Part shown: piece by piece, positions 330 to 16,406 of the stretch | Numbering within the stretch: the stretch's first letter is position 1 | Layout of the letters: each line of letters begins with the position of its first letter | Origin: Desulfurella acetivorans A63 | Lineage (GTDB): Bacteria > Campylobacterota_A > Desulfurellia > Desulfurellales > Desulfurellaceae | Length of the DNA: 64,000 nucleotides | Reading direction: 5' to 3' | Assembly (NCBI GenBank): GCA_000517565.1 | Contig: CP007051.1 | Coordinates: 1,279,949-1,343,948 of the forward strand | The notes under the pieces: model-generated | Told to the model about the DNA's origin: nothing | Database searches by the model: none | What the model saw: only the letters and a program-made list of their open reading frames with translations | Program-made: the position numbers and the translations under genes

Positions 330-1184
330 TTACTTTTTTGTATAATCGTAGAAGCCTTTGCCGCTTTTTCTGCCCAGATAGCCTGCTTCTACCATTTTTA
401 CAAGCAAAGGACACGGTCTGTACTTTGAGTCTTTAAAACCTTCATACAGTACATTCTGTATGGCAAGTACTGTATCCAATCCGATAAAGTCTGCCAGTAC
501 AAATGGTCCCATCGGCTGGTTTGTGCCAAGCTTCATAGCCTTATCTATATCCTCAATAGAGGCTATACCTTCATAGTAAGCATATATTGCTTCATTAATC
601 ATGGGTATAAGCACACGGTTTACGATAAAGCCTGGGTAATCCTTTGATAAAGCTGGATTTTTATCAAGTGATTTTGCCAGATCAAGTACAGTGTTATAGG
701 TATCTTGGCTTGTTGCAATACCCCTTATTACCTCTACAAGCTCCATAACAGGTACTGGGTTCATAAAGTGCATACCAATTACCTTATCTGGCCTTTTAGT
801 TTGAAAACCAAGTTTTGTGATGGATATGGAAGAAGTATTTGAAGCAATTATTGAGCCTTCTTTTACAATTGAGTCTAGCTTTGAGAAGAGCTCAAGCTTA
901 AGAGCCTCGTTTTCCGGTGATGCTTCAATACAAAAATCCACATCTGAAACATCATTTAAGTTTGTAGTGGTTTTTATGTTTTTTAGAGTTGCTTCTATCT
1001 GACTTTCCTGTATGGTATTTTTTTTAGCCTGCCTTTTTAAGTTTTCTTCTATTGTTTTTAGTGCTTTGTCAAGCTGGGTTTGAGCTATATCATATAGCAC
1101 GACAGAATAGTTATGCAAAGCAAATACATGGGCTATCCCATTTCCCATCTGGCCTGCACCTACAACGCCTACTTTATTAATCAT
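330..1184 (-). CDS. hbd: 3-hydroxybutyryl-CoA dehydrogenase
   Basis: 284 residues. Oxidises 3-hydroxybutyryl-CoA to acetoacetyl-CoA (or the reverse) with NAD(P). The N-terminal Rossmann motif GVVGAGQMGNGIAH is complete; the catalytic His lies in HFMNPVPVMELVE and the conserved Asn in NRVLIPMINEA. Length matches short-chain 3-hydroxyacyl-CoA dehydrogenases (about 282). I chose the ATG at 1182-1184, preceded by AAGGAGGATAAA, over an in-frame ATG 24 bp upstream that precedes the ribosome site. It is followed 9 bp later by a crotonase. Upstream is only a thiolase stub, so the classic thiolase-hbd-crotonase operon has lost its first gene here. Confidence 0.95.
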   Translation of the reverse strand: MINKVGVVGAGQMGNGIAHVFALHNYSVVLYDIAQTQLDKALKTIEENLKRQAKKNTIQESQIEATLKNIKTTTNLNDVSDVDFCIEASPENEALKLELFSKLDSIVKEGSIIASNTSSISITKLGFQTKRPDKVIGMHFMNPVPVMELVEVIRGIATSQDTYNTVLDLAKSLDKNPALSKDYPGFIVNRVLIPMINEAIYAYYEGIASIEDIDKAMKLGTNQPMGPFVLADFIGLDTVLAIQNVLYEGFKDSKYRPCPLLVKMVEAGYLGRKSGKGFYDYTKK

Positions 1185-1194
1185 TTTATCCTCC

Positions 1195-1260
1195 TTAAAC
1201 ATTTTCAAATATCGCTGCTACTGCTTCACCACCACCTATGCAAAGAGTGGCACAAAACAA
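1195..1260 (-). pseudogene. thiolase 3' remnant (C-terminal ~20 codons only)
   Basis: Reading the minus strand in the frame ending TAA at 1195-1197 gives CATLCIGGGEAVAAIFENV then stop. ATLCIGGG is the near-invariant C-terminal motif of acetyl-CoA acetyltransferases, close to the end of the protein. An in-frame TAA lies four codons upstream of the recognisable part and no start is available, so nothing functional can be made. The stub sits directly ahead of hbd, where a thiolase gene normally sits. It ends where the terminator of the neighbouring 15-gene operon begins, so it looks like a rearrangement scar. Confidence 0.8.
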
Positions 1261-1292: not shown

Positions 1293-1329
1293 AAAAATTA
1301 GCGGATTCTCTTTTTCGAGAAAATCCGCT
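1293..1329 (-). terminator. intrinsic terminator of the 15-gene acyl-CoA operon
   Basis: Inverted repeat AGCGGATT (1300-1307) with AATCCGCT (1322-1329), extended inwards by CTC/GAG. On the minus strand it is followed by a TAATTTTTT tract. It lies about 55 bp downstream of the last gene of the operon and 33 bp before the thiolase stub. Confidence 0.75.
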
Positions 1330-1384: not shown

Positions 1385-1915
1385 TTAAGGTAAATGATAA
1401 CCTATAGCCGAACATAATGAATAAATAAAAAATAGTATTCCATCAATTGCTGAAAATCCACCTGCTATCTTTCCTAATGAGTGTTTTTCTGTATAACTTG
1501 CTAAAGCTAATAAAAAAGTGATAGGTACTAACAAGCCGAACATAACAGTCAAAAACAAAGCGCCTTTGCTGGCTAAATAAATTGTAGCTCCAGTAAAGTA
1601 AAAAGAAGTTAATAAAACTGCATGATAAGTAACTACTCTATTTGTTCCATTTAAGAGACCAAAAGCCAATGCCCACAATAAAAATACAAATGCTGCTGCT
1701 GATGTTGCTCCAAAGATATTTCCACTTGCAATCACAAACATCATAGCTATGGTTTCCATTATAGCAGCAGTTAACAAAATATACCCAAAATCCTTTACAT
1801 CATGGCGTTTGCTGACACCGAGATCCATCATACCAATTACCCATAAAACAACCGTAGCTTCCCATAAAAGTGTGTTCATTGCCACATGTCCAGCATGCTC
1901 AATCAAATGTTCCAT
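1385..1915 (-). CDS. six-helix membrane protein, probable small-carboxylate transporter (GPR1/FUN34/YaaH-like)
   Basis: 176 residues, almost entirely hydrophobic with about six membrane segments. The segment SGNIFGATSAAAFVFLLW resembles the NTFGAT-type motif of acetate/succinate permeases of the SatP family, and size matches. The N-terminal NPAPLGL signature typical of that family is not present, so an AmiS/UreI-like channel is an alternative. I chose ATG at 1913-1915, preceded by AGGAGG at 8 bp; a GTG 9 bp further upstream overlaps that site. Being the last gene of an acyl-CoA operon, it would plausibly import the carboxylic acid used by the pathway. Confidence 0.5.
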   Translation of the reverse strand: MEHLIEHAGHVAMNTLLWEATVVLWVIGMMDLGVSKRHDVKDFGYILLTAAIMETIAMMFVIASGNIFGATSAAAFVFLLWALAFGLLNGTNRVVTYHAVLLTSFYFTGATIYLASKGALFLTVMFGLLVPITFLLALASYTEKHSLGKIAGGFSAIDGILFFIYSLCSAIGYHLP

Positions 1916-1944
1916 AAAAAACACCTCCTAAAGATATTAATTTT

Positions 1945-2721
1945 TTAACAAAAAATCCCAACTTCGTTTTCTTTTCTCTTTGTAACAAAATCTTCCATTC
2001 TTTTTCTCGCATTTGAGTCTAAAGAAAACATAGTTAATACATTAATCAACTCAATAAATTTGGATTTATCTTTGTGAGTGTTTGACCATTTCTTAATAAA
2101 CTGGACTGAATGCGTGGCATTAGAAATAATTTTCCAGGCAATTTCTAAAGTTTTATTTCTTAAATCATCTTTCTCTGCTATACAATCTACTAAACCAATT
2201 CTTTGAGCTTCATATACATCAATCGCCTCACCTATCAACGAAAGCCTATTGATTTGTTTTATCCCAAGAATTGTATAGCCAAATGACAATGCTGCGGGCG
2301 GTATTAAACCTAATTTTGCTTCTGATAAAGCAAATTTAGATTCTTTAGTCGCAATTACGACATCCATTAATAAAAGTATTTCAAAACCACCACCATAAGC
2401 TAAGCCATTAACCATTCCTATCATAGGCTTTTCAATTTCAAGTAGTGATTCAAAAACTTTTAAAAGTGTGTTAAAAAAATTGTCTGCTTCTTCTTTATTT
2501 TTTAATTCATACGTGGCTTTAATATCATCACCTGCACTAAACGCTCTACCTACACCAGAAACAACAACCACACCTGTTTTACTATTTTTGGCTAATTCTA
2601 CAGTTTCGTAAAATTCTTCCCACATATCCTTTGTAAATGCGTTGAGTTTTTCGGGTCTATTTAGTTGAATCCAACTAATACTGTTTTCTTCAGTATAAAT
2701 GATGTTTGTAAAATCAGGCAT
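1945..2721 (-). CDS. enoyl-CoA hydratase/isomerase family protein
   Basis: 258 residues, full crotonase length. Both acidic residues expected of a true hydratase are present: the Glu in GGGFEI and the Glu in LSEAKLGLIPP. The CoA/oxyanion segments VSGVGRAFSAGDDI and MVNGLAYGGGFE are intact. This is the second crotonase of the operon; the other (11498-12268) looks like methylglutaconyl-CoA hydratase. This one follows the 4-hydroxybutyryl-CoA dehydratase homologue by 14 bp, so hydration of crotonyl-CoA or a similar product of that enzyme is a reasonable guess. Substrate is not readable from sequence. Confidence 0.85.
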   Translation of the reverse strand: MPDFTNIIYTEENSISWIQLNRPEKLNAFTKDMWEEFYETVELAKNSKTGVVVVSGVGRAFSAGDDIKATYELKNKEEADNFFNTLLKVFESLLEIEKPMIGMVNGLAYGGGFEILLLMDVVIATKESKFALSEAKLGLIPPAALSFGYTILGIKQINRLSLIGEAIDVYEAQRIGLVDCIAEKDDLRNKTLEIAWKIISNATHSVQFIKKWSNTHKDKSKFIELINVLTMFSLDSNARKRMEDFVTKRKENEVGIFC

Positions 2722-2735
2722 TATTTGCTCCTTTT

Positions 2736-4163
2736 CTACTTAATTTCTAGTAGTTCTTTTACAAATGACTTTTTTTCATCTACATTTGCTAATCTTTGTA
2801 TAAATATGTTCGGAGTAATAGGAGAACCGCCACCATGGATAGCTCCTGCTAAATGTGGGCCAGCTATCCAATACTCAACAAATTTTATTAGTTTCATTCT
2901 TTCTTCTGTAGTAACAGAATCACTTCCTTTTAAATAATGCTCTATATACTTGCCAATTTCTGGATTTTTTAGATCTTCCTCGGAAGGTGCCGTAACACAT
3001 ACACCACCAGTAATATCTGCAAGATTTATCGCTGCTTGCGCTATGGCTGGTAAACCTAGGGTTTTTGATACATTAGAATACAAAGCATTTGGCAAATATA
3101 CACCTGATTTCGTTTTTATTCCTTCATATCCCGCCGCTAAACCACAAGCATAACAACTTTCTTGACCCTTTACTATATCAGTAATTTTATTTACTATATG
3201 GGACGCATTTTGGATGCCATTGTACTCTGACATCAGCTTTGCAGCTCCAACCATAGTATCTATAAAACCTGCTTTGCAACCTGAACCCACATATCTATGA
3301 ATATCAGTAAAATTACTTACCAATGAACCAGCAAAATTATATTCCTCGCACATAAATACTCTATCCCACGGCACAAATACATTATCAAATATGACTAAAA
3401 AAGTTCCTCTGTCTCCATATGGATTACCAGATTCCCAGCCGGGGGTTTCTCTTTTTTTAGCTTCATATGCATTATTTTGCAAAACATACGTTACACCTTC
3501 CGTGCCAGATTCAATAGCAAAAGCAACAGCATAAGCCTTATCAGATTCTTTTAATGCTATCGTTGGCATAACAACGGTTTCATCTACGACCAACGCTCCA
3601 GATTGACAAATTTTGGCACCTTTTACTACTATACCATCAGTTTTTTTCTCTAAAATTTTTAAATACATATCATCTTGTTGGCTTGGACTTTTAGACCTAT
3701 CGCCCCTTACATCGGTTAGCGCTCCTGATACGGCTAAATCGTTTTGTTGTACATACTTGATATAATCTAATAACCTATTATGATATGTAGTTTTTAAAGT
3801 TTCATCCATATCATAGGTAGTTACATATAAGGCATTTAAAATATCACAACCCACGCAACGGTAATTGCAGGTTGCTAACTTTTGACTTAAAAGCCTTGCT
3901 AATTTAATGCGTTTTATAAGATCTTCTTTTTCCGTATAAATATGCAAAAATCTATTAATTGGTTCATTAACAAATTGTGAATTTGCAACCATTAAATCTT
4001 TAAATTCCTCTTTTAAAGCTAAATCATATGTTAAACCAATTGAGTCAATCATTGGTTTAATGTTGGGATGTTCAACAAAATTATCTATTTTTTTCCCATT
4101 AATATAAAGAGCTGGCTTTTTTTTGGAAATTCTTTTTACATATTCTTGCTTCGAAGATAGCAT
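2736..4163 (-). CDS. 4-hydroxybutyryl-CoA dehydratase / vinylacetyl-CoA isomerase family protein
   Basis: 475 residues, a flavin plus [4Fe-4S] radical dehydratase of the HpaB/AbfD superfamily. The four cluster ligands known from Clostridium aminobutyricum (Cys99, Cys103, His292, Cys299) are all matched: Cys99 and Cys103 in CNYRC, and His289 and Cys296 in HRYVGSGC, with the same spacings. That makes a true dehydratase/isomerase more likely than a flavin monooxygenase relative. The known reaction converts 4-hydroxybutyryl-CoA to crotonyl-CoA and isomerises vinylacetyl-CoA. A CoA-transferase lies immediately upstream and a crotonase downstream. In this operon the substrate could instead be a methyl-branched 3-enoyl or 4-hydroxyacyl-CoA; this is inference. 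Confidence 0.85.
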
Positions 4164-4244
4164 ACACCCTCCTTTCTTTTTAACTTTTTTACCCTTTATT
4201 TTTTAATTTTTTATATTAATTTTTTAACACAAAAATCTAAACTA

Positions 4245-5792
4245 TTAACTGTTGGGGTTCGCTACTCCTTTTGGTGCAATAACCAAATCCATATAACCGT
4301 GTTTATGGTCTTTTAATTCATTTGCACTAGGATATCTTCTATCTGGAGACACATCAAACATCCAGTGTTTTGTTTTAATACCTAATTTTGCCGCTTCTTT
4401 TTCTAATTCTTCTCTATCATCTGGATGAGCAATACTAATTAATTTTCTGGCTTTTTCTGCATCTGTACAAGCCATAAGGTTTACTATCCCATATTCTGTG
4501 GCAACATAGTTAACAAATTGCGATGGAACATCTACAACATCTCCTCTATCAAGCATTCCAACAATACGTGATTTTCCATCTGGTGTTCTAGAAGTTGCCG
4601 CAAGCACTGTTCTTCCACCTCTGGATAATTGCCCCCCTACTGTAAATTGAAATTGCCCACCAGTGTTAGATATAGGCCTGCCACCAACACAACTTGAAAC
4701 AACCTGACCCCTGATATCAATCTTTGCAAAGCTCATTATCCCCATAAAATTATCGACCATAGATAATGTTAAAAAGTTATTTGTGTAATTTATATCATAA
4801 GCAGCAAACATTGGATTATGGTGCATCCATTCAAAATATCTTTCAGGAATAAACGGTACGGCATAAGCCCAAGCGCATCTTCCTTGATCTATAGATTTTT
4901 GAGAATTATCAATCTTTCCTTTTTCTATTAACGTAAAAGCCCATTCTCCTATCATTTCTGTATGCACGCCAAGATGTTTTAAATCAGAATCAGATATAGC
5001 TAAAACAACAGCTGTTGGTAAAGAACCAATTCCTACCTGCAAAACATCACCATTTCGCATTATTGATAGGATATGTTCAGCTATTTTTTTATCTGTCTCA
5101 GATGGAATTATATTGCGTTCGTCAAGGCGTGGATATTGAAAATCAGGATCTGATAAATCTACCTCAATAAAATAATCCACATCATCAATATGTAAATTAA
5201 CATTTCTACCTGGTTCACACCATGCATGATCTTCTCTTATTTCACATACAAATTTTTTACAAGTTTTAGCTGTTATCATAAAATTTGATACACCATAACT
5301 TCCATTTACATAGCTCCCTTCAGGTTTTGCAATTGTAGCAATTCCCCAATCAGCTACTCGTTGCGATTTTTCTTTTCTATAAAATCTTGCAAATTGGTAA
5401 TTCATATGCATTGCCCATCCCCACTGGTACCAATCAAACCCCTGCCAGCCTTGTTTTATCGCATCTTTTGTACCTTTATGGATAAATCCCTGATGCTGGA
5501 TATGATATTTACCTTCTTTATCGTATCTAAGACCAAAATCTGTACCTAAAAATGCATTATCAACTGCCCACATTTCAATATTTTGTAATTTATCTGGACC
5601 ATCACCTAATCTCTGAAATATAGCTTTTCTCGGAGCCACAGCATCTGTTCCAACCATACACCCATAAATCCAATCACCAGATTTAACCATACTGGCAAAC
5701 TTTTCTGCTGTGATTGTCTTGTTTCTAATTTTCTGCATCACAGGATTGCTCTGTGCCAATGATCCGTTTTTAAAATCAGAAAAGTTACTCAT
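4245..5792 (-). CDS. acetyl-CoA hydrolase/transferase family CoA-transferase
   Basis: 515 residues, class I CoA-transferase of the Cat1/4-hydroxybutyrate CoA-transferase type. Recognised by GIGSLPTAV, the HTEMIGEW segment that normally carries the catalytic glutamate, and the C-terminal GGQLSRGGRTVLA/YGIVNLMACTDAEKARKLISIAHPD block. It would move CoA from acetyl-CoA or succinyl-CoA onto a free carboxylic acid in the cytoplasm. The position between the VOC protein and the dehydratase homologue suggests it activates the acid feeding the operon (isovalerate, 4-hydroxybutyrate or similar). ATG at 5792 has an AGGAGG site. Donor and acceptor cannot be told from sequence. Confidence 0.88.
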   Translation of the reverse strand: MSNFSDFKNGSLAQSNPVMQKIRNKTITAEKFASMVKSGDWIYGCMVGTDAVAPRKAIFQRLGDGPDKLQNIEMWAVDNAFLGTDFGLRYDKEGKYHIQHQGFIHKGTKDAIKQGWQGFDWYQWGWAMHMNYQFARFYRKEKSQRVADWGIATIAKPEGSYVNGSYGVSNFMITAKTCKKFVCEIREDHAWCEPGRNVNLHIDDVDYFIEVDLSDPDFQYPRLDERNIIPSETDKKIAEHILSIMRNGDVLQVGIGSLPTAVVLAISDSDLKHLGVHTEMIGEWAFTLIEKGKIDNSQKSIDQGRCAWAYAVPFIPERYFEWMHHNPMFAAYDINYTNNFLTLSMVDNFMGIMSFAKIDIRGQVVSSCVGGRPISNTGGQFQFTVGGQLSRGGRTVLAATSRTPDGKSRIVGMLDRGDVVDVPSQFVNYVATEYGIVNLMACTDAEKARKLISIAHPDDREELEKEAAKLGIKTKHWMFDVSPDRRYPSANELKDHKHGYMDLVIAPKGVANPNS

Positions 5793-5807: not shown

Positions 5808-6242
5808 TTAAGTTTTTATTTCTTCAATTAATTCAATTAATACTCCGTGAAATGAAGATGGGTGTATAAATATATAACGTATGGCACCATTAAAAGGAGG
5901 AAGCTTATTTACTTCTATTGGTTGCTGTGGTATTAGTTTGATATTATTCTTTTGTAATTTTTCTATTAATGCATCTAAATTTTTTACTTTTAAAGCTATA
6001 TGATTTAATCCTTCTCCTCTTTTTTGTATAAACTTGGCAACAACACCATCGGGGTAAGTAGATTCAATAAATTGTAATTGTGTGTCACCAATTTTTGCAG
6101 ATTTTACAAATAATTTTTCATCTGGCAATTCCCACTCATAATCAAAATCAATTCCAAACAGCATAGTAAACTCTTCAGCGGTTTTTTTTGCGTCTTCTAC
6201 TGCTATGGCCACTTCTTCTAAACCAACTAAATATTCACTCAT
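5808..6242 (-). CDS. VOC-fold protein, methylmalonyl-CoA epimerase-like
   Basis: 144 residues from the ATG at 6240-6242 (preceded by AGGAGG); a longer in-frame extension overlaps the previous gene and is unlikely. The glyoxalase/VOC fold is seen as two beta-alpha repeats. Of the four metal ligands of methylmalonyl-CoA epimerase, Gln (DTQLQF), the second His (GLNHIALKV) and the C-terminal Glu (GVLIELIEE) are present. The first His is replaced by Glu (LEEVAIAVED rather than DHVGIAV). It sits one base after the biotin carrier gene in a methylcrotonyl-CoA carboxylase operon, so it may epimerise a different branched CoA ester, or be a binding protein. Confidence 0.7.
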   Translation of the reverse strand: MSEYLVGLEEVAIAVEDAKKTAEEFTMLFGIDFDYEWELPDEKLFVKSAKIGDTQLQFIESTYPDGVVAKFIQKRGEGLNHIALKVKNLDALIEKLQKNNIKLIPQQPIEVNKLPPFNGAIRYIFIHPSSFHGVLIELIEEIKT

Positions 6243-6243
6243 T

Positions 6244-6735
6244 TCAATCCTCCTTTGGTTCAATTTCAACCAATAATTCAAGAGGCCCAACCTGAGCTCC
6301 TTTCTCAATATAAATTTTTTTTATGCAGCCATTTACACTGCTTTTAAGTTCGTTTAAAACTTTCATTGACTCTAAAACAACAACTGTATCGCCTTTTTTT
6401 ACTATATCATTTTCCATAAATTTAATTTCTTTTATTATACCAGGCATTGGAGATTTAATATTATTTTCTATCACTTCATGACTTGAAAGTGTTTCATTTT
6501 CTGATATTTCTTCTATTATAAATTCTTCATCTTCCGCCCATATAACTATTTTATTTTTCGCTTTATAAACATCTAGAACAATTGCTGTATTGTCTTCGAT
6601 ATTTAGTACTAAATAATCATTCCCGTATCTAAAAACCTGAAAAGGTAAACTTGAATCTTGATAAGATAATAAATATGAATCGCCTTTTCTTAATAATTCA
6701 TATTCTAGAGATTCATTATTAACTTTTATGTTCAT
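6244..6735 (-). CDS. biotin carboxyl carrier protein of the acyl-CoA carboxylase
   Basis: 163 residues. The C-terminal ~70 residues form a biotinyl domain with the lysine in VVLESMKVLNELKS (ESMK replacing the usual EAMK). The N-terminal ~80 residues look like the BC-carboxyltransferase linker domain (NESLEYELLRKGDSYLLS and following). In most methylcrotonyl-CoA carboxylases this part is fused to the biotin carboxylase as one alpha subunit; here it is a separate gene 1 bp downstream of the carboxylase gene. Biotin would be attached by the BirA encoded at 36974-37939. Confidence 0.9.
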   Translation of the reverse strand: MNIKVNNESLEYELLRKGDSYLLSYQDSSLPFQVFRYGNDYLVLNIEDNTAIVLDVYKAKNKIVIWAEDEEFIIEEISENETLSSHEVIENNIKSPMPGIIKEIKFMENDIVKKGDTVVVLESMKVLNELKSSVNGCIKKIYIEKGAQVGPLELLVEIEPKED

Positions 6736-6736
6736 T

Positions 6737-8233
6737 TTACCCCCTCCATGATCCTATCATTTCCCAACAAGACGGCAAAGTTGCTTCACCAGAAAATGTT
6801 AAATCTGAAGAGCTTTGTTTTAAAAACTCATACAAAACTATTGCTTCTTTTAAGTGAATAGGATTTTGTTTTTGATTGAATAATTCATCTTTATAAATGC
6901 TCAAAAATTGGGTATTATAATCACCTTCTATAAATTTTTTATGTTTGAAAATATTTTTTAAAAGAGGAATCGTAGTTTTAATGGGTGCAATATGATATTC
7001 TGATAAGGCTCTATACATCTTTTTTATTGCCATCATTCTATTTGGAGCTTTTACAATCAATTTAGCTATTAATGGATCATAATGTATTAATACTTCTGAA
7101 CCTTCAAAAAATCCAGAATCCACTCTAATACCGAAACCTGCAGGTTCCCTATAATGTTCTATTTTTCCAATAGAAGGCATAAAATTATTATCTGTATCTT
7201 CGGAATAAATTCGAGACTCTATGGCGTGCCCATTTATACGATTGTTAAGTTCATCTTGAGATAACTCAATAGGTTTTTCTTCTGCAATATCAATTTGGGA
7301 AGCTATTAAATCAAATCCACTAATCTCTTCTGTTACAGGATGTTCAACTTGAATCCTGGCATTAACTTCAAGAAAATAAAAATTTTTACTTTTTTTATCA
7401 TAGATAAATTCAACAGTTCCAGCATTATGATAGCCGGCTTTTTTTGTAACAAGTAAAGCAGCTTCGCCCATCTTTTTGGCTGTCTGTCTATCGATAGTTG
7501 GAGATGGACTTTCCTCGATAATTTTTTGATATCTTCTTTGTACAGAACATTCTCTTTCAGGAAAATATAAACCATTACCAAATTTATCAATTAAAAATTG
7601 TATTTCTATATGATGGGCATCTTCTATGTATTTTTCGATATATACGGTTGGATCAGCAAATGCAGCTTTTGCCTCTTCTCTGGCAACTTTTATTGCATCT
7701 TCTAAGTCTTTATCGTCATAAACAATTCTCATTCCTTTTCCGCCACCACCTGCAGATGCTTTTATTAAGACTGGATAACCTATCTCATTTGCTAATTTAT
7801 GGGCCTGCTCAATTGATTCTATAGTCCCACCTGGAGTCGTCGGTATGCCAGCCGATTGTGCTATAATTCTAGAATTAATTTTATCCCCTAAATTTTTCAT
7901 GCATTCGCTTGGAGGACCAATCCATATTAAACCATTTTCTTGAACCATTTTGGCAAAAACGGGATTTTCAGCCAAAAAACCATAACCAGGATGAATTGCA
8001 TCACAATTAGCTTGCTTGGCTGTATTGATAATTTTTTCCATATTAAGATAACTTTTTATTGCTTCAGGTTCGCCTATATTATAGGCTTTATCTGCAAAAG
8101 AAATGTGTTTAGATAGTTTATCTGCTTCAGAATAAACTCCAATTGACTCAATTCCAAGTAACTTTAATGTTTTCATTATCCTTATAGCAATTTCTCCTCT
8201 ATTGGCCACAAGTACCCTTTTAATCTTTCTCAT
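6737..8233 (-). CDS. biotin carboxylase subunit of (methylcrotonyl-CoA) carboxylase
   Basis: 498 residues, ATP-grasp biotin carboxylase that charges the biotin carrier using bicarbonate and ATP. Seen: N-terminal KRVLVANRGEIAIRI, the glycine-rich loop KASAGGGGKGMRIV, catalytic EVNARIQVEHPVTE, and the C-terminal biotin carboxylase domain. It lacks the fused biotinyl domain of typical MccA/LiuD (about 650 residues), which is supplied by the next gene. It lies 3 bp after the carboxyltransferase gene, whose sequence points to methylcrotonyl-CoA as substrate. Confidence 0.92.
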   Translation of the reverse strand: MRKIKRVLVANRGEIAIRIMKTLKLLGIESIGVYSEADKLSKHISFADKAYNIGEPEAIKSYLNMEKIINTAKQANCDAIHPGYGFLAENPVFAKMVQENGLIWIGPPSECMKNLGDKINSRIIAQSAGIPTTPGGTIESIEQAHKLANEIGYPVLIKASAGGGGKGMRIVYDDKDLEDAIKVAREEAKAAFADPTVYIEKYIEDAHHIEIQFLIDKFGNGLYFPERECSVQRRYQKIIEESPSPTIDRQTAKKMGEAALLVTKKAGYHNAGTVEFIYDKKSKNFYFLEVNARIQVEHPVTEEISGFDLIASQIDIAEEKPIELSQDELNNRINGHAIESRIYSEDTDNNFMPSIGKIEHYREPAGFGIRVDSGFFEGSEVLIHYDPLIAKLIVKAPNRMMAIKKMYRALSEYHIAPIKTTIPLLKNIFKHKKFIEGDYNTQFLSIYKDELFNQKQNPIHLKEAIVLYEFLKQSSSDLTFSGEATLPSCWEMIGSWRG

Positions 8234-8236
8234 AGC

Positions 8237-9844
8237 TCACATCCTAAATATTCCAAATTTTACATCTTCAATTTGTTTGTTAAGTGTTACCTCTAACGCG
8301 AGCATTAAGTACTCTCTTGTTTTTTTTGGATCTATAATCCCATCATCCCACAATCTTGCGCTTGAATAAAGCGCACTTGACTTTTCTTCATATTCTTGAA
8401 GTATAGGTTTTCTTATAGCTTCAATCTCTTCTTGGGTAAGTTTTTTTCCTTCTCTTTCAAGTTGTGCAAGTTTGATACTTGATAATACATCAGCAGCTTG
8501 CTGAGGGCCCATTACAGCAATTTTTGCATTGGGCCACATCCATAAAAACCTTGGGTTATAACCTCTTCCTGCCATAGCATAATTTCCTGCTCCATAAGAA
8601 TTGCCTATTATTATTGTAATTTTAGGTACATTGGTAGTTGAAATAGCTGTAATCCATTTTGCACCATCTTTTGCCATTCCCTGATGTTCATATTTTTTAC
8701 CGATTATAAATCCAGTTATGTTTTGTAGAAAAATTAGTGGTACTTTTCTTAAACTGCATAATTCTACAAAATGTGCGGCTTTCTGAGATGACTCAGGAAA
8801 TATTATTCCATTATTTCCGATAATCCCAACTAAATATCCTCCAATTCTAGCAAAACCAGTTACTAATGTTTGTCCGTATAATGGTTTAAATTCTTCAAAT
8901 TCGCTATTATCTACAATGCGTGCTATAATTTCACGTACATCAAAAGGTATACTTAGATCTTCTGGTAATATACCGTATATCTCGTCAGGATCATATAAAG
9001 GATCTTGTGGTGTAGACCTATCTAATTTAAATTTTTCTTGCTTAGGTAAATGAGCGAAAATTTCCCTTGCTTTTTTTAGAGCTTCTTCTTCATTGTTTGC
9101 AAGATAATCTGCTACACCAGAAATACGCGTATGTACATCAGCGCCACCCAAATTTTCTGCATCTATTTCTTCACCTGTAGCTGCTTTTACTAAAGGTGGA
9201 CCACCTATAAATATTGCACTTTGATTTTTAACCATAATCACCTGGTCGCACATGGCAGGAACATAAGCTCCACCAGCAGTACCAAGACCTGTAACAACAG
9301 CCACCTGTAATAATCCCATACTACTCATAATTGCTTGATTATAAAAGAAATTTCCAAAATGCTCTTTATCAGGATACACTTCATCTTGCATTGGCAGAAA
9401 AACTCCACCTGAATCAACTAAATAAAGACAATGTAAATTATTTTCTCTTGCTATAGTCTGCGCTCTAACATGTTTTTTAATTGTCATAGGGTAATAAGTC
9501 CCAGCCTTTACAGTTTGATCATTTGCAATAATCATTACCTCTTTTCCACTTATTTTACCTATTCCTGTAACTATTCCACCACAGGGAGCCTCATTGTTAT
9601 ACATATTGTAACCTACAAATGGACCAATTTCTAAAAAAGGTGAATTTTTATCTATTACCTTTTCTATTCGTTCTCTACAAAACAATTTTCCTCTTTTTTT
9701 ATTTACTTCATGTGCTTTTTCAGGCCCACCTTTTGCCAATTCTTCTCTAATCTGATTTATTTCCTCAACTTTCTTTTTATTAAATTCGTATCTTTTTTTA
9801 AATTCTTCTGAGTTAGTATTAATATTGGACATAATTTTAGCCAT
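8237..9844 (-). CDS. mccB: methylcrotonyl-CoA carboxylase carboxyltransferase (beta) subunit
   Basis: 535 residues. Transfers carboxyl from biotin to 3-methylcrotonyl-CoA, giving 3-methylglutaconyl-CoA. Signature segments typical of MCC beta rather than propionyl-CoA carboxylase are LYLVDSGGVFLPMQDEVYPD, GGADVHTRISGVADYLA, LVTGFARIGGYLVGI, FLQNITGFIIGKKYE and the C-terminal SSARLWDDGIIDP ending in FGIFRM. Length fits MccB (about 535). The ATG at 9844 has GGAGGAAACAA upstream and overlaps the end of etfA by 8 bp. The MCC assignment of this subunit is the anchor for reading the operon as a leucine/isovalerate-type pathway. Confidence 0.93.
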   Translation of the reverse strand: MAKIMSNINTNSEEFKKRYEFNKKKVEEINQIREELAKGGPEKAHEVNKKRGKLFCRERIEKVIDKNSPFLEIGPFVGYNMYNNEAPCGGIVTGIGKISGKEVMIIANDQTVKAGTYYPMTIKKHVRAQTIARENNLHCLYLVDSGGVFLPMQDEVYPDKEHFGNFFYNQAIMSSMGLLQVAVVTGLGTAGGAYVPAMCDQVIMVKNQSAIFIGGPPLVKAATGEEIDAENLGGADVHTRISGVADYLANNEEEALKKAREIFAHLPKQEKFKLDRSTPQDPLYDPDEIYGILPEDLSIPFDVREIIARIVDNSEFEEFKPLYGQTLVTGFARIGGYLVGIIGNNGIIFPESSQKAAHFVELCSLRKVPLIFLQNITGFIIGKKYEHQGMAKDGAKWITAISTTNVPKITIIIGNSYGAGNYAMAGRGYNPRFLWMWPNAKIAVMGPQQAADVLSSIKLAQLEREGKKLTQEEIEAIRKPILQEYEEKSSALYSSARLWDDGIIDPKKTREYLMLALEVTLNKQIEDVKFGIFRM

Positions 9845-10727
9845 TTGTTTCCTCCAATTCGTTGATTAAAGCCATTGCAAAATCTTTCCAATCAGCAACG
9901 ATATTGTATCGAGCTCGTTTAAATATAGGCGCTTCTTCGTCTTTATTTATAGCAACTACACATTTTACATTTTTTATACCCGATAAATGTTGAGTAGCTC
10001 CACTTATGCCAAAAGCAAAATATAAGCTTGCTGATAACATAGCACCTGATTGACCAATTTGATATTGGTGTGATATCCAACCATTATCAACCGCTGCCCT
10101 TGATGCTCCTACTACCCCTCCAAATAATTTTGCTATTCTTTCTAGAATAGCAAAACCTTCTTTTGAGCCTATACCTCTTCCTCCACCTATTACAATCTTT
10201 GCTTTATCTAATTCAACTTCTTTTTCTATCTTTTCTTCTTTGACAATTTCTATATTGTCTTTTTTGCATTCTAACCACTCAATTTCCATCAATTGGTTTG
10301 TTGTTAGTTGTTCGAAATATTTTTCTTTTAAAATTAAAACCAATGGAAGATGCTCCGGTTTGTAATCAATAACAGCTTTATCGCCATAAGCACTATGTGA
10401 AAAAATAAACTCATCATATTTAATTTCACTAACACCAAAAACACATGATGCACTAAGTTTTAGTGTTAAAATTCCTCCAATATGAGCACCTACTGTACCA
10501 TTCGTTAAAATAACATCATATTTTGATGCAAGTGGCAAAATGGTTTCAATTGAATTCGGCGGTATATTATTGATTCCATATGCTTTTTTTACATCTATTT
10601 CTAATTCTTTTTTGTTTGTAAAAACTATAGCGTCAATGTTATCACTAAATTTTTTTGCAACAAAATTTAACTCACCTAACCTATCTTTGTCATCATCACT
10701 TATTATTAACACATTTTTTATAATCAT
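9837..10727 (-). CDS. etfA: electron transfer flavoprotein alpha subunit
   Basis: 296 residues. The C-terminal FAD domain is clear: GGGRGIGSKEGF, VGASRAAVDNGW, QIGQSGAMLSASLYFAFGISGATQHLSGI and INKDEEAPIF. The ATG at 10725-10727 overlaps the etfB stop as ATGA and has AAGGAG 8 bp upstream; a TTG two codons earlier is less likely. With EtfB it takes electrons from the acyl-CoA dehydrogenase of the same operon (14938-16101). No ETF:quinone oxidoreductase or bifurcating partner is visible within the operon. Confidence 0.92.
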   Translation of the reverse strand: MIIKNVLIISDDDKDRLGELNFVAKKFSDNIDAIVFTNKKELEIDVKKAYGINNIPPNSIETILPLASKYDVILTNGTVGAHIGGILTLKLSASCVFGVSEIKYDEFIFSHSAYGDKAVIDYKPEHLPLVLILKEKYFEQLTTNQLMEIEWLECKKDNIEIVKEEKIEKEVELDKAKIVIGGGRGIGSKEGFAILERIAKLFGGVVGASRAAVDNGWISHQYQIGQSGAMLSASLYFAFGISGATQHLSGIKNVKCVVAINKDEEAPIFKRARYNIVADWKDFAMALINELEETNG

Positions 10728-11488
10728 AAGCAATGCTCCTTCTTTAGATTTTCTAATAGTAGTTTAGCTGTAAAAGATAGATCATCGTTAGGCAGTGTTT
10801 CGTTAATATACTCATACTTTGGAATCTTTGCAGACAATTCCTGTGCCCAGTTAAATTTTTCGAAATTAATTTCTTCTTCTGTTATTAATGGTTTTGTTTT
10901 ACTTTTCATAATTTCTTTTAAGTTAGGAATTCTTGGTAAATTACATGGGGCATCAGTTATTGAAGCCACAAATTTTTCTTTTATAAGCAAGTGTAAATTC
11001 TTATTATCCAATTGTTGAACACATAAAAAAGATTTACCATTAGACTCAGATGAAATTGATACGATATAAGGTAAGTAAATACGATTAAGTATTCCTGCCA
11101 CTAAAGGTGGAACCATTTCTCTTTCTAAATCCGACGATACTCTTCCAAGAATGACTATTTCAATATTATATTTTTCAATTATATTGGCTAGGTTATAAGC
11201 CGTCTGAAATGGATCATCGTTACTCGACTCAATTATTATAAGCTCGTCTGCACCCATTGAAAGAGCTTTTTTTAAGGTTGATACGTATTCTTTTTTAGTA
11301 TAGCTAATTGCATAAAGTTTACTTTCTAATTTTGATCTTAGTTGAAGCCCAACCTCAAGTGCATGTTCATCGTACAATCCTAAAACATATTTATAATCAC
11401 CTGACATTCTGTTGCCTTGTAAATAAAATTTTTCAGCCGGGACTTCATAGTCTGGCACTGCCTTTATACATACACCAATATTTATCAT
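10724..11488 (-). CDS. etfB: electron transfer flavoprotein beta subunit
   Basis: 254 residues of the EtfB family, beginning INIGVCIKAVPDYE. It has the ALSMGADELIIIES segment and the IVILGRVSSDLEREMVPPLVA nucleotide-binding region. Its stop overlaps the etfA start by 4 bp, typical of coupled etfBA translation. It accepts electrons from the isovaleryl-CoA dehydrogenase-type enzyme. The family also includes bifurcating forms; I could not decide this from the loop sequence by eye. Confidence 0.9.
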   Translation of the reverse strand: MINIGVCIKAVPDYEVPAEKFYLQGNRMSGDYKYVLGLYDEHALEVGLQLRSKLESKLYAISYTKKEYVSTLKKALSMGADELIIIESSNDDPFQTAYNLANIIEKYNIEIVILGRVSSDLEREMVPPLVAGILNRIYLPYIVSISSESNGKSFLCVQQLDNKNLHLLIKEKFVASITDAPCNLPRIPNLKEIMKSKTKPLITEEEINFEKFNWAQELSAKIPKYEYINETLPNDDLSFTAKLLLENLKKEHCL

Positions 11489-11497
11489 CCTACCTCC

Positions 11498-12268
11498 TCA
11501 TTTATTTTTCCACTGAGGTTTTTGTTTATTTAAAAATGACTCAATACCTATTTTTAAATCTTGTGCAGAAAAGTTAACTATTCTTAACAAAGATAAATAC
11601 TCACTTTCACAGGAGGAGGGGTTGTGAGAAACATTTATCATATCCATTAGTAGTTTTAAAATTAAAGGGCTTTTTTGAGCAATTTGGCTCGCAATTTCTT
11701 TCGCTTTTTTTAAAGGATTTTCATCAATAAAGTGAACTAAACCAATTCTATAAGCCTCTTGAGAGCTAATAGTTTTGCCCATAAGAGTCAGTAATATAGC
11801 CTCTCTTTCGCCAACTGCTCTCTTAACATATGGAAATATAACATAAGGCAGTATACCTAAATTAATTTCGGTTAAACCAAAACGCGTATCAGGATGCGAA
11901 ACAACTATATGAGCATTTGCAACTAAACCAAAACCACCTCCCAAAGCATATCCAGATACTGCTGCAATTAAAGGTTTTTTCAGTATATCAACTATCCTCA
12001 AAACATCTACATTAATATTTTTCTTTGAATAATGTTCTAATGCTGTTAATTCAACACCTTCTGCAAATTCTTTAATATCGCCGCCAGCACAAAAAACATC
12101 TCCTGCTGAGGTTAATATAACTACATATATAGATTCGTCTTCAGCTAATTTTTTGATACTTTCTAGTAATTCAGACGACAAAGATTCATCTAACGCATTT
12201 TTTTTATCTAAATTATTCATATATACAACCGCTACATTACCTTCTTTTTCAATCAATACTTTACTCAT
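11498..12268 (-). CDS. enoyl-CoA hydratase family, probable methylglutaconyl-CoA hydratase
   Basis: 256 residues. Crotonase fold with oxyanion segments TSAGDVFCAGGDIKEF and VSGYALGGGFGLVANAH. The first catalytic Glu position is Gly (GGGFGL) while the second is kept (GLTEINLGI). The segment LGILPYVIFPYVKRAVGERE closely resembles bacterial methylglutaconyl-CoA hydratases (LiuC), which have a VISPYV..AIGER block there. This enzyme hydrates 3-methylglutaconyl-CoA to HMG-CoA. Lying between DUF35 and etfB, next to MCC and HMG-CoA synthase genes, it joins the carboxylase to HMG-CoA. A generic enoyl-CoA hydratase is the alternative. Confidence 0.8.
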   Translation of the reverse strand: MSKVLIEKEGNVAVVYMNNLDKKNALDESLSSELLESIKKLAEDESIYVVILTSAGDVFCAGGDIKEFAEGVELTALEHYSKKNINVDVLRIVDILKKPLIAAVSGYALGGGFGLVANAHIVVSHPDTRFGLTEINLGILPYVIFPYVKRAVGEREAILLTLMGKTISSQEAYRIGLVHFIDENPLKKAKEIASQIAQKSPLILKLLMDMINVSHNPSSCESEYLSLLRIVNFSAQDLKIGIESFLNKQKPQWKNK

Positions 12269-12279
12269 TTTAACCTCTA

Positions 12280-12300
12280 AAAAGGTAAGGGGGAAACCCC
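12280..12300 (-). other. short GC hairpin with T-tract between DUF35 and hydratase genes
   Basis: On the minus strand GGGG-TTT-CCCC (12290-12300) is followed by CTTACC and a five-T run. It sits in the only non-trivial gap (38 bp) in the middle of the operon. It could act as a weak attenuator or mRNA end that lowers expression of the genes after DUF35. The stem is short, so this is tentative. Confidence 0.35.
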
Positions 12301-12306
12301 TCAGCC

Positions 12307-12702
12307 TTAATCTTCAACTATAGCTTTTGGACCATAAATTATAATACCAGCTTTACCTTCAACAAATAATCTCCTAAATACTACACTTACTTTTTTACCG
12401 ATCTCTATATTGTTAAAATCGGTATCGACAATTTGTAACATTAATCTAGCTCCGTTTGTAAGTTCTACTATAGCTACAGCATAAGGTGAAAAATCTTCAA
12501 AACCCTCGGGTGCTGAATAAATAACAGTGTAAGTAAGAATTTTACCTTCTCTTGGAAGATCAATAATTTCAATATTTTCCGAGTGGCATTTTGGACATAC
12601 TTTTCTGGCAGGATACATTGTGTAACCACAATCTTTACACTTACCACCTTTTAACATGTATCTTTGTGGTTTTTCTCTCCAATTTCTCGGTATAGTTAAC
12701 AT
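12307..12702 (-). CDS. DUF35 OB-fold/Zn-ribbon protein, partner of thiolase-HMG-CoA synthase
   Basis: 131 residues. The N-terminal rubredoxin-like zinc ribbon has two CxxC pairs (CKDCGY and CPKCHS), followed by an OB-fold domain (GKILTYTVIYSAPEGFEDF, PYAVAIVELTNGARLM). In archaea this family bridges acetoacetyl-CoA thiolase and HMG-CoA synthase and lets them share a CoA-binding channel. Here the gene follows HMG-CoA synthase and thiolase in the same order as in archaeal operons and overlaps the thiolase stop by 1 bp, so the same complex is expected. Confidence 0.88.
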   Translation of the reverse strand: MLTIPRNWREKPQRYMLKGGKCKDCGYTMYPARKVCPKCHSENIEIIDLPREGKILTYTVIYSAPEGFEDFSPYAVAIVELTNGARLMLQIVDTDFNNIEIGKKVSVVFRRLFVEGKAGIIIYGPKAIVED

Positions 12703-13862
12703 TAAATCACCTCCAAAATTGTAACTGTAACAGTGGCACCAGAACCACCTAAATTATGGGCCAATCCTACTTTTGCGTTATTAACCTGGAGATCTTTAGC
12801 TTGACCTCTTAATTGTTCTACAAGATTCACAATTTGTGCAATACCAGTTGCACCAACCGGGTGCCCTTTACCTTTTAAACCCCCGCTTGGGTTTACAGGA
12901 ATTTTTCCATCAATCTCTGTTAGACCGTCTTCTGTAGCTTTTGCACCTTTACCTTTTTCAAAAAAACCTAAATCTTCTATTGCACATATTTCTGCGATAG
13001 TAAAACAGTCATGTACCTCAGCAACATTTATATCTTGAGGTGATTTACCAGCCATTTGATAAGCTTTTTTTGCAGCTTCTATTGTAGCTTGAAATGTAAC
13101 AAAATCATTTCTTTGAGCTAAAGCAATTGTATCTGTTGCCTGGGCTATACCAGAAATTTTAATGGGTTTAGCAGCATTTGACAATTTTTTTGCTTTCTCT
13201 AATGGCATTAAAATGACACTTGCTGCCCCATCAGTCATTGGAGAACAATCATACAATCCAAGAGGATCTGCTATTATTGAAGCATTCAAAACATCATCAA
13301 TTGTGATTATGTTGTGAAATTGTGCTTTTGGATTTTTTGAAGCGTTCTTATGATTTTTTACAGCAACTGCTGCAAGTTGTTTTCTTGTAGCATTGAAATC
13401 ATGCATGTATTTTTTTGCTACCAATGCAAATAAGCCAGGAAAAGTAACGCCTTGATAACCCTCATACTCTCTATCAGCAGCCATAGATAATGAATAAACA
13501 CCCTGAGAAGTTACTACATCGGTCATTTTTTCAACACCCGTGACAAGCACTACATCAGACATTCCTGATGCTACTTCCATATAAGCATGTCTTAAAGCCA
13601 CTCCACCCGAAGCACAAGCATTTTCTATCCTAGTGGATGGTATATGTAAAAATCCTAAATAATCAGCTAAAATTGCAGCCATATGCTCTTGTTCTACAAA
13701 AGTACCGCCACTAAAGTTTCCCAAATAAATAGAGTCTATTTTATCAACCCCAGAGCTTTTTATTGCTTCTAAGCTAGCTTCAACAGCCAGATCTCTCCAG
13801 GACTTCTCCCATAAATATCCAAAATTTGTTATTCCAATCCCTACTACGGCTACATCTCTCAT
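12702..13862 (-). CDS. archaeal-type acetyl-CoA C-acetyltransferase (SCP-x/lipid-transfer-like thiolase)
   Basis: 386 residues. Catalytic Cys in ENACASGG, His in [22 protein letters not shown] in place of the usual NEAF motif, and a C-terminal [11 protein letters not shown]. The HDCF form and the lack of a C-terminal CxG motif put it in the archaeal/SCP2-thiolase class, which works with HMG-CoA synthase and DUF35. It interconverts 2 acetyl-CoA and acetoacetyl-CoA. It is not a homologue close to the degenerate thiolase stub at 1195-1260, whose ATLCIGGG end is the classical type. Confidence 0.87.
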
Positions 13863-13864
13863 TA

Positions 13865-14911
13865 TTAATCCTCCCTCATTTTAATTTTACCTCTAAGAAA
13901 AGCATAAGTTGCATAATTTACATACTGTTTTCTATCAGCATAGTACTTCAAAAGAGGCGCATTATTTCGCACTTTTTCAAGTCTTTCTGTTACCCTAAAT
14001 ATAAAGGAATCGCTTCCAGCCCCAGATCCAAACGAAGTCACTAGAATTATATCGTTAGCTTTGGCAATATCTAAAACAGAAGCTAAACCCAATAATGAAC
14101 AGCCTGAATATGTATTGCCAATGTAAGGAGCAACCCATCCTGGTTCAAACTGTTCTTTTGTAAATCCTAGCATCTTTGATGCTCTTAAAGGAAAAGCTCC
14201 ATTTGGCTGATGAAAAACGCAATACGTAATGTCCTTTGGTGTCATTTTCGCTTTTTCCATAACTCCTTTGGCAGAATTTAAGGTATGATGAAAATATGCT
14301 GGAGCACCAGTAAATGGACCGGTGTGAGTAGGATATGATTGACCATCTCTTCTCCAAAAGTCTGGTGTATCTGTGGTATATGAATATGTGGCAATAACCT
14401 CAGCTATAACATTATCGTTTCCCATTATAAATGCCGCTCCACCTGCAGCTGCTGTATATTCCAATGGGTCTTTAGGGGCACCTTGAGAAGTATCCGAGCC
14501 AATACCAAGTCCATATTTAATTTCACCCGATTTTACTAAGCCATAAACCACAAAAACAGTTTCACTGCCAGCTTTGCAGGCAAACTCATAATCAGCCACA
14601 TGAACAGCTGGAGTTATACCTAATGCATCAGCTACAATTGTTGCGGATGGTTTAACTGCATACGGTTTTGATTCAGAGCCAATATACACGGCTCCTATTT
14701 CCTGTGGATCAATTTCAGCTCGCTTTAAAGCATTTCTAGCTGCTTCATAAGCTATAGTTACTGAATCTTCATCTTTTGCAGGAACTGTTTTTTCCCTTAC
14801 TAATAAACCATTTTTTAGAGTTTCTGCATTTTCTCCCCATTGAGCGGCAATTTCTTCTACTTTAATCCTGCGTTTAGGAACATAACACCCATATCCTACG
14901 ATACCTGTCAT
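13865..14911 (-). CDS. hydroxymethylglutaryl-CoA synthase, archaeal type
   Basis: 348 residues. Catalytic triad expected of HMG-CoA synthases is visible: Glu80 ([11 protein letters not shown]), Cys112 (YEFACKAG) and His234 ([13 protein letters not shown]). Further archaeal-HMGCS blocks are [49 protein letters not shown] and [11 protein letters not shown]. Length matches the archaeal enzyme (about 350), not the longer animal/bacterial one. It condenses acetyl-CoA with acetoacetyl-CoA to HMG-CoA, or runs in reverse. It lies 2 bp before the thiolase gene. Use in the mevalonate pathway is unlikely given the MCC/IVD context. Confidence 0.92.
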
Positions 14912-14937: not shown

Positions 14938-16101
14938 TTATAAATCTGTAAAGCCTTCTTCTATACGTCTTGCAAGCAAAATCTTCATCATTTCTGTTGT
15001 TCCGGCACCAATATCATAAAGTTTTGCATCTCTCCAATACATCTGAACGCGATAATCAGTTGTATAACCATAACCACCAAGAATTTGGATTGCTTCTTCT
15101 GCTGATTTTACTGCAGCTTGAGCTGATGTCATTTTAACCAAAGCAGTTGCTGCTCTCAATTTCTTTGAACCTGGATTTTTTCTCCATGCTTCAGCTAATT
15201 GATATAGATAAAGTCTATTCAATTCAAGTTGAGCTAAAATATAACCAAGTTTTTCTTGAATAAGTTGGTAATTTATAATAGGCTGGTTAAATTGTATTCT
15301 TTCTTTGGCATATTTTGACGCAATATCTAAAGAGCCTTTAATCATACCTAGATTACTGCCTGACAAACCAATTCTTTCTACATCTAAACCTTCCATCATA
15401 ATATGAATTCCCTCTCCTTCAGCTCGTAAGATATTTTCTTCAGGTACTTCTGTGTCATTAAAAGTTACAAAACCTGTAGGAGAAGCTCTCATTCCCATTT
15501 TATGCATTTTTTCTACAGAAATATTTCCAAAATCTTTTTCTACTATAAAAGCAGAAACTCCTCTTTTAGGATCATCTGAAGTTTTTGCGTAAACTACAAA
15601 AATATCTGCAACAGGACCATTAGTTATAAAAATTTTGCTTCCTCGTAATATATATCTATCACCTTTTTTAATAGCTCTTGTTCTAGGATGTGCAGCATCT
15701 GAGCCTATTTCTGGTTCTGTTATGCATATGGCAGCTACTTTATCTCCGGCAGCTATAGGTGGAATATATTTTTCTTTTTGTTGTTTGTTACCAGCTCTAT
15801 TAATAACATTGCCTGCAAGTATAGCATGAGCTCCTAATGTCATAGCAATTGCAGGTGAATATACAGACATTTCTTCATGTATTACAACGCTTGTTAATAA
15901 ATCATCGCCTAATCCACCAAGATCACTATCTAACATCATCCCTGTAAGACCAATGTCACCCATTTTTTTCCATAGTTCAGGTGGCATATACTCTTGTTGA
16001 TCCCATAACAATGTGTCTTTAAATTCACGTTCACAAAAATCTCTTACAGTATTAGCAAATTCAACCACTTCCTCACGTAATCCTAACTTCGAAATAAGCA
16101 T
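14938..16101 (-). CDS. acyl-CoA dehydrogenase, isovaleryl-CoA dehydrogenase-type active site
   Basis: 387 residues, FAD-dependent acyl-CoA dehydrogenase (ICITEPEIGSDAAHPRT; IFITNGPVADIFVV; EEAIQILGGYGYTTDYRVQMYWRDAK). The usual catalytic Glu of short/medium-chain enzymes (YEGTSE) is replaced by Ala366 in IGAGTTE. A Glu is instead present at 242 in GLDVERIGLSG, the position used by isovaleryl-CoA and long-chain dehydrogenases. With MCC in the operon, isovaleryl-CoA to 3-methylcrotonyl-CoA is the best reading. It is the first gene after the sigma-54 promoter; ATG at 16101 follows AGGAGG by 6 bp. Confidence 0.88.
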   Translation of the reverse strand: MLISKLGLREEVVEFANTVRDFCEREFKDTLLWDQQEYMPPELWKKMGDIGLTGMMLDSDLGGLGDDLLTSVVIHEEMSVYSPAIAMTLGAHAILAGNVINRAGNKQQKEKYIPPIAAGDKVAAICITEPEIGSDAAHPRTRAIKKGDRYILRGSKIFITNGPVADIFVVYAKTSDDPKRGVSAFIVEKDFGNISVEKMHKMGMRASPTGFVTFNDTEVPEENILRAEGEGIHIMMEGLDVERIGLSGSNLGMIKGSLDIASKYAKERIQFNQPIINYQLIQEKLGYILAQLELNRLYLYQLAEAWRKNPGSKKLRAATALVKMTSAQAAVKSAEEAIQILGGYGYTTDYRVQMYWRDAKLYDIGAGTTEMMKILLARRIEEGFTDL

Positions 16102-16370: not shown

Positions 16371-16406
16371 GATTACTTTTAAAATCATATGATTACAAAA
16401 GTAATC
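16371..16406 (-). terminator. hairpin at the end of the regulator gene (terminator or activator site)
   Basis: Perfect 10-bp inverted repeat GATTACTTTT (16371-16380) / AAAAGTAATC (16397-16406) with an inner palindrome ATCATATGAT. It overlaps the regulator stop codon and on the minus strand is followed by TTTTAAAAT. It could end the regulator transcript. Its position about 210 bp upstream of the -24 box also allows an enhancer site. The rest of 16102-16404 is AT-rich with no further gene. Confidence 0.5.

Follow-up and report, generated by a model that had tools for sequence, protein, structure and literature searches.

What does a homologue of 4-hydroxybutyryl-coenzyme A (CoA) dehydratase (4HBD) do inside an operon for 3-methylcrotonyl-CoA carboxylase (MCC)? 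The question is raised by a stretch of 64,000 nucleotides from the sulfur-respiring bacterium Desulfurella acetivorans A63 (contig CP007051.1, positions 1,279,949 to 1,343,948 of the forward strand), which is called the window as a whole. The genome holding it (G000, 1.82 Mb) belongs to the same genus as G001 and G002 and to a different family from the Hippea-type genomes. A sequence-only reading, made earlier from the letters of the window, had placed a 4HBD homologue and a CoA-transferase in such an operon; both open reading frames were found at these places and the operon genes were confirmed:

2736..4163, minus strand: 4HBD-superfamily protein, termed 4HBD-A, 475 amino acids, cluster ligands kept, with Q101Y, T190S, E257T, Y296G and E455G (numbering of 1U8V)
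4245..5792, minus strand: family-I CoA-transferase, 515 amino acids, catalytic Glu kept

The favoured answer, held with evenly balanced confidence, is that 4HBD-A would be an acyl-CoA enzyme with flavin adenine dinucleotide (FAD) and a [4Fe-4S] cluster, belonging to a separate 4HBD subfamily, and not a 4-hydroxybutyryl-CoA dehydratase; it would most likely be an enoyl-CoA delta-isomerase. The protein, which begins with gaaaggagggtgtATG, matches Pfam PF11794/PF03241 well over the cut-off, and aligns over residues 1-474 with the Clostridium aminobutyricum 4HBD (1U8V; E = 3.8e-117, about 41% identity) as well as with 6VJR. It remains below the NCBIfam equivalog cut-offs for 4-hydroxyphenylacetate 3-monooxygenase, with 168.7 against 480.2 bits for HpaB-1 and 82.4 against 885.2 bits for HpaB-2. 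Besides full-length homology, it shares with 1U8V all of the [4Fe-4S] ligands (C99, C103, H292 and C299), K300 and the HGxGSP motif. The sequence-only reading was thus right that all four ligands are conserved.

The differences lie around the cluster. The H292-C299-K300 stretch, FDNVF.P and HGxGSP served as gap-free anchors for the alignment columns. Twelve canonical sequences (1U8V, 6VJR, those of Cetobacterium, Fusobacterium and Bradyrhizobium, and those of seven further genomes) were compared with 13 subfamily sequences, six from the A clade and seven from a sister clade in another phylum. Q101, T190, E257, Y296 and E455 are invariant in the 12 canonical proteins, whereas all 13 subfamily members carry Y at 101, S at 190, T at 257, G at 296 (C in the sister clade) and G at 455. 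In the AbfD test of T190, E257, Y296 and E455, canonical residues therefore occur in 12/12 of the canonical clade versus 0/13 of the subfamily, T190S being a conservative change. Compared with 1U8V, 4HBD-A additionally has M149L, a four-residue deletion ahead of the E455 site and another gene neighbourhood.

These replacements touch the residues by which the canonical enzyme is said to start its reaction. Reportedly, the proposal is that E455 takes a proton from Y296, which reduces FAD, while E257 protonates via T190; the variants E257Q, E455Q and Y296W reportedly had no measurable activity, and Y296F and T190V less than 1%. According to PMC13101534 (citing Zhang 2015), substrate binding in canonical 4HBD leads to an internal one-electron transfer that gives a flavin semiquinone and then an allylic ketyl radical. 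Judged by its residues, 4HBD-A probably works without the radical trigger (Tyr296-Glu455 / Glu257-Thr190) that has been proposed for the C. aminobutyricum enzyme. The loss of these residues argues against 4-hydroxybutyryl-CoA dehydration, and in a subfamily in which E257, Y296 and E455 are replaced throughout, conserved ligands alone do not bear out the earlier expectation of radical dehydration or isomerisation. A delta-isomerase is the most likely single reaction, because the retained cluster, the cluster histidine, Lys300, Ser190 and, presumably, FAD are better suited to abstracting an alpha-proton and moving a double bond than to a radical dehydration.

In a tree of 44 rows, the two subfamily clades group together at 96/96, outside the canonical clade. 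Between G000 and G001, the ratio of non-synonymous to synonymous substitution rates is about 0.036 for 4HBD-A, 0.023 for the MCC carboxyltransferase and 0.028 for the CoA-transferase, values that are rough as synonymous sites are near saturation; the ratio of 4HBD-A is also within the range of that of 3-hydroxy-3-methylglutaryl (HMG)-CoA synthase. Such strong purifying selection indicates that 4HBD-A is functional though non-canonical.

The adjoining CoA-transferase matches 4-hydroxybutyrate/butyrate CoA-transferases (7.6e-43), and its HTEMI aligns with the HSEMI of 3GK7 and of the Cetobacterium and Fusobacterium proteins, which places it in family I. It shares the catalytic Glu region and the C-terminal domain with 4-hydroxybutyrate or butyryl-CoA:acetate CoA-transferases of the AbfT/Cat2 type (3GK7, TIGR03948), but differs from them in that its N-terminal half contains insertions and its C terminus is extended. 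It scores under the cut-off of TIGR03948, the butyryl-CoA:acetate CoA-transferase family (226.7 versus 674.8 bits), and no relative outside the genus was found at E<=1e-60 in 386 genomes. That 4HBD-A has as its substrate a short acyl- or enoyl-CoA supplied by a partner CoA-transferase, of family I here and a CaiB/BaiF pair in G391, a genome of another phylum, is rather more plausible than otherwise.

The genes on the downstream side bear on the simplest rival explanation:

1945..2721, minus strand: crotonase-family protein, both hydratase glutamates present by sequence comparison
1385..1924, minus strand: small membrane protein, AmiS/UreI-like by eye
1300..1329, minus strand: strong terminator-like hairpin of 12 pairs with a T-rich tail, between the membrane protein and hbd
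330..1208, minus strand: 3-hydroxybutyryl-CoA dehydrogenase (hbd), first gene of a separate, recently duplicated hbd-crt-bcd-etfBA set

An ordinary dehydratase would receive 4-hydroxybutyrate activated by the CoA-transferase and convert it to crotonyl-CoA, to be oxidised by the crotonase and hbd. Full-length homology and complete cluster ligands speak for it, and so do the nearness of hbd-crt and a CoA-transferase adjoining 4HBD as in the canonical plasmid cluster of Cetobacterium somerae (L098). That cluster has a sigma-54 regulator, a 4HBD homologue and an adjacent family-I CoA-transferase in common with the present locus. However, it also has 4-hydroxybutyrate dehydrogenase, a TIGR00366-family protein and a transporter, it is devoid of MCC, and its 4HBD has every canonical residue, unlike 4HBD-A. 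No 4-hydroxybutyrate dehydrogenase was recognised among the neighbours of 4HBD-A, the remaining genome not having been searched. Moreover, the strongest terminator-like hairpin of the first 18 kb (1329-1300, minus strand) lies before hbd, whereas no such minus-strand hairpin occurs at the epimerase/CoA-transferase or CoA-transferase/4HBD junctions; this placement predicts that the MCC transcript includes the 4HBD gene but not hbd. A second genomic copy of hbd-crt-bcd and etfBA, at 99.3-99.5% DNA identity, lies beside an IcmF-type mutase, and the boundary of the duplication is some 44 bases upstream of hbd. At the corresponding site, G001 has broken 4HBD-type open reading frames together with a thiolase and a DUF35-like gene in place of hbd. 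Owing to the terminator, the recent duplication and an adjacency that is not kept in G001, the crotonyl-CoA entry through the adjacent hbd suggested by the sequence-only reading has little positional support. With Q101, E257, Y296 and E455 replaced as well, an ordinary dehydratase is very unlikely.

The duplicated hbd-crt-bcd/etfBA loci lie at 1-1252 of the window, at 6580-11201 of L007 and at 2706-8630 of L114. In the copy at the window edge, crt contains ambiguous bases, which may have arisen from assembling the duplicated sequence. L114 also holds, at 9178-14619, a fused IcmF-type acyl-CoA mutase (1142 amino acids) followed by a membrane Fe-S oxidoreductase-like protein; the mutase beside a butyrate-type beta-oxidation set makes an isobutyrate/butyrate route probable.

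On the other side of the CoA-transferase stands the core of the operon, preceded by its probable regulator:

5808..6308, minus strand: methylmalonyl-CoA-epimerase-like VOC protein, final gene of the conserved operon core
6244..6735, minus strand: biotin carboxyl carrier protein of MCC
6737..8233, minus strand: biotin carboxylase subunit of MCC
8237..9844, minus strand: MCC carboxyltransferase subunit, 657 bits to the MCC beta chain 3U9R
9837..10733, minus strand: EtfA
10724..11488, minus strand: EtfB
11498..12268, minus strand: crotonase, probable 3-methylglutaconyl-CoA hydratase
12307..12702, minus strand: DUF35-type partner protein of thiolase/HMG-CoA synthase, by position and by eye
12702..13862, minus strand: archaeal-type acetoacetyl-CoA thiolase
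13865..14911, minus strand: archaeal-type HMG-CoA synthase, 524.8 bits against a cut-off of 353
14938..16101, minus strand: acyl-CoA dehydrogenase of the isovaleryl-CoA dehydrogenase type, with IGAGT replacing the usual catalytic-Glu motif
16405..17718, minus strand: sigma-54-dependent activator with a sensory domain, probable operon regulator, preceding the operon

The carboxyltransferase scores 643-672 bits against MCC beta chains, AccD1 (4Q0G) and 9TPS, and at most 302 bits against other named propionyl-CoA carboxylases; 9TPS itself is deposited as a propionyl-CoA carboxylase. The solved structures closest to the dehydrogenase are isovaleryl-CoA dehydrogenases, in which the usual catalytic-Glu motif is likewise replaced. 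The crotonase at 11498..12268 fits LiuC-type motifs, and its assignment as a hydratase is partly motif-based. An isovaleryl-CoA-type dehydrogenase, MCC and a methylglutaconyl-CoA hydratase thus stand in one isovalerate/leucine operon, and these three steps are common to liu-type leucine/isovalerate catabolism. The predicted isovalerate pathway needs no 4HBD homologue to be complete. The Hippea-type genome G011 has the operon from the dehydrogenase to the epimerase-like gene only, which bears out the earlier remark that 4HBD has no obvious step in isovalerate oxidation. Compared with liu-type operons, the epimerase-like, CoA-transferase, 4HBD and crotonase genes are additions.

Liu-type operons usually include HMG-CoA lyase, but here the archaeal-type HMG-CoA synthase, thiolase and DUF35-like protein (12307-14911, minus strand) sit within a degradative MCC operon instead. 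No lyase gene is present within the operon, the remaining genome not having been searched for one, and the DUF35-type protein has no NCBIfam match. HMG-CoA may be cleaved by a reverse-running synthase/thiolase complex, which, if true, would spare a thioester otherwise spent on acetoacetate. The epimerase-like VOC protein (5808-6308) is 26% identical to the other epimerase of the genome. As that second epimerase adjoins methylmalonyl-CoA mutase, the operon gene is unlikely to be the propionate epimerase.

The Etf genes in the operon raise the option that 4HBD-A dehydrogenates or reduces an acyl-CoA, with electrons passing via the cluster to Etf, and the 4HBD family has an acyl-CoA-dehydrogenase-like fold. 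Nevertheless, the operon already has an isovaleryl-CoA-type dehydrogenase for Etf, and in G004, G008 and G391 the 4HBD-A gene is found apart from etf, so a redox enzyme is scarcely probable.

The relation to MCC is best seen from other genomes. The block of CoA-transferase, 4HBD-A and crotonase has an identical order in G001, and the crotonase (1945..2721, minus strand) follows 4HBD-A in G000, G001 and G011. In G011, 4HBD-A and the crotonase lie on a separate contig from the operon, and a CoA-transferase orthologue was not found. 4HBD-A is also present in G004 (99% complete) and G008, where an MCC orthologue was not found. The 4HBD-A of G391 is 71% identical, and after its gene come those for a thioesterase-like protein and two CoA-transferases of the CaiB/BaiF type. 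These two share 41-43% identity with a pair that adjoins MCC in G019-G021; no MCC orthologue was found in G391, hence 4HBD-A is not adjacent to MCC there. As these three genomes hold 4HBD-A without an MCC orthologue, it is not restricted to MCC pathways, and by its gene order the block is a separable module. Within the phylum, 4HBD-A at >=65% identity occurs in 5/25 genomes, and this patchy distribution together with the 71% cross-phylum match suggests horizontal transfer. The small membrane protein (1385..1924) has no Pfam or NCBIfam match; its homologue (49%) is found in the leucine-type cluster of G019.

Two further explanations depend on this distribution. The CoA-transferase, 4HBD-A and crotonase may form an independent module on the operon promoter, merely co-regulated, that degrades a different acid such as a hydroxy or unsaturated C4-C6 acid. 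Its absence from the G011 operon, the occurrence of 4HBD-A elsewhere without MCC and further 4HBD-type paralogues in other CoA-transferase/SDR/thiolase clusters of Desulfurella- and Hippea-type genomes are in line with such a module. On the other hand, the block order is kept in two Desulfurella-type genomes, and the CoA-transferase and 4HBD-A are conserved like core MCC genes, suggesting a real link; the independent module is accordingly a possible explanation, though not a likely one. A specific form of the favoured isomerase, which the sequence-only reading had offered as its second idea, is that 4HBD-A isomerises 3-methyl-3-butenoyl-CoA (or vinylacetyl-CoA) and feeds MCC directly. The predicted co-transcription with MCC agrees with this, and mechanistically proton shifts would suffice, with the cluster and its histidine kept; vinylacetyl-CoA isomerisation is, moreover, an established 4HBD activity according to the title of Scherf and Buckel (1993). 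Yet 3-methyl-3-butenoate has no known source in the organism, the substrate pocket is altered and 4HBD-A occurs without MCC in the three genomes above, so that this specific form is doubtful.

The preferred delta-isomerase would run in a simple order. The partner CoA-transferase would make the acyl- or enoyl-CoA substrate, at which the [4Fe-4S] cluster of 4HBD-A would serve as Lewis acid and the cluster-bound histidine as base for the alpha-proton. The product, 3-methylcrotonyl-CoA or another 2-enoyl-CoA, would be passed to the crotonase and MCC. The reaction itself is proposed only tentatively: it would shift the enoyl-CoA double bond from beta,gamma to alpha,beta, or be a related proton-shift or hydration step.

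Several points weigh against this isomerase. Constraining the A clade with the canonical clade was not rejected (p-AU 0.207), and the subfamily distinction consequently rests on residues more than on topology. The trigger roles of E257, Y296 and E455 come from reported mutagenesis, and Tyr101 (both clades) or Tyr294 (A clade) could conceivably replace Tyr296 and keep radical dehydration possible. Structure prediction from a three-sequence alignment gave a predicted local distance difference test score (pLDDT) of 33 and was not used for active-site geometry. Furthermore, 4HBD-A in G004 and G008 has no linked CoA-transferase or crotonase.

Other 4HBD-type genes occur in these genomes. A second one (L006, 7356-8850; contig C1 of G000, about 762.4-763.8 kb) is frameshifted near its start and intact in G001 and G002; it is accompanied by a two-subunit CoA-transferase, an SDR and transporters. 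A third paralogue (L045, 9942-14878; L051, 9604-14458; L040, 13855-17796) has Tyr for His292, is broken in G001 and neighbours a two-subunit CoA-transferase, thiolase/DUF35 genes and an acyl-CoA dehydrogenase. The fourth, of Hippea-type genomes (L048, L049, L050, L046 and L047), has Met101, keeps Tyr296 and is without Glu455; an SDR comes after it, joined by a crotonase in three of those genomes.

A literature search, outside which most subscription papers fell, found no paper tying 4HBD homologues to such an MCC operon or describing this subfamily or its residue pattern. The boldest version of the proposal, which is rather unlikely, is that 4HBD-A represents a new functional class of the 4HBD superfamily without the Tyr296/Glu455/Glu257 trigger, acting on branched C5 enoyl- or hydroxyacyl-CoA and giving a second entry to 3-methylcrotonyl-CoA metabolism. 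Such a class would either isomerise or hydrate its substrate by a redox-neutral, non-radical route, or rely on a tyrosine that has moved to position 101 or 294. The presence of a 4HBD homologue serves as a marker of 4-hydroxybutyrate metabolism and of archaeal CO2-fixation cycles, and a subfamily with an intact cluster and no trigger would be mis-annotated accordingly. The subfamily is also a natural variant for probing how Tyr296, Glu257 and Glu455 contribute to starting the flavin radical, and it may bring a new reaction around 3-methylcrotonyl-CoA.

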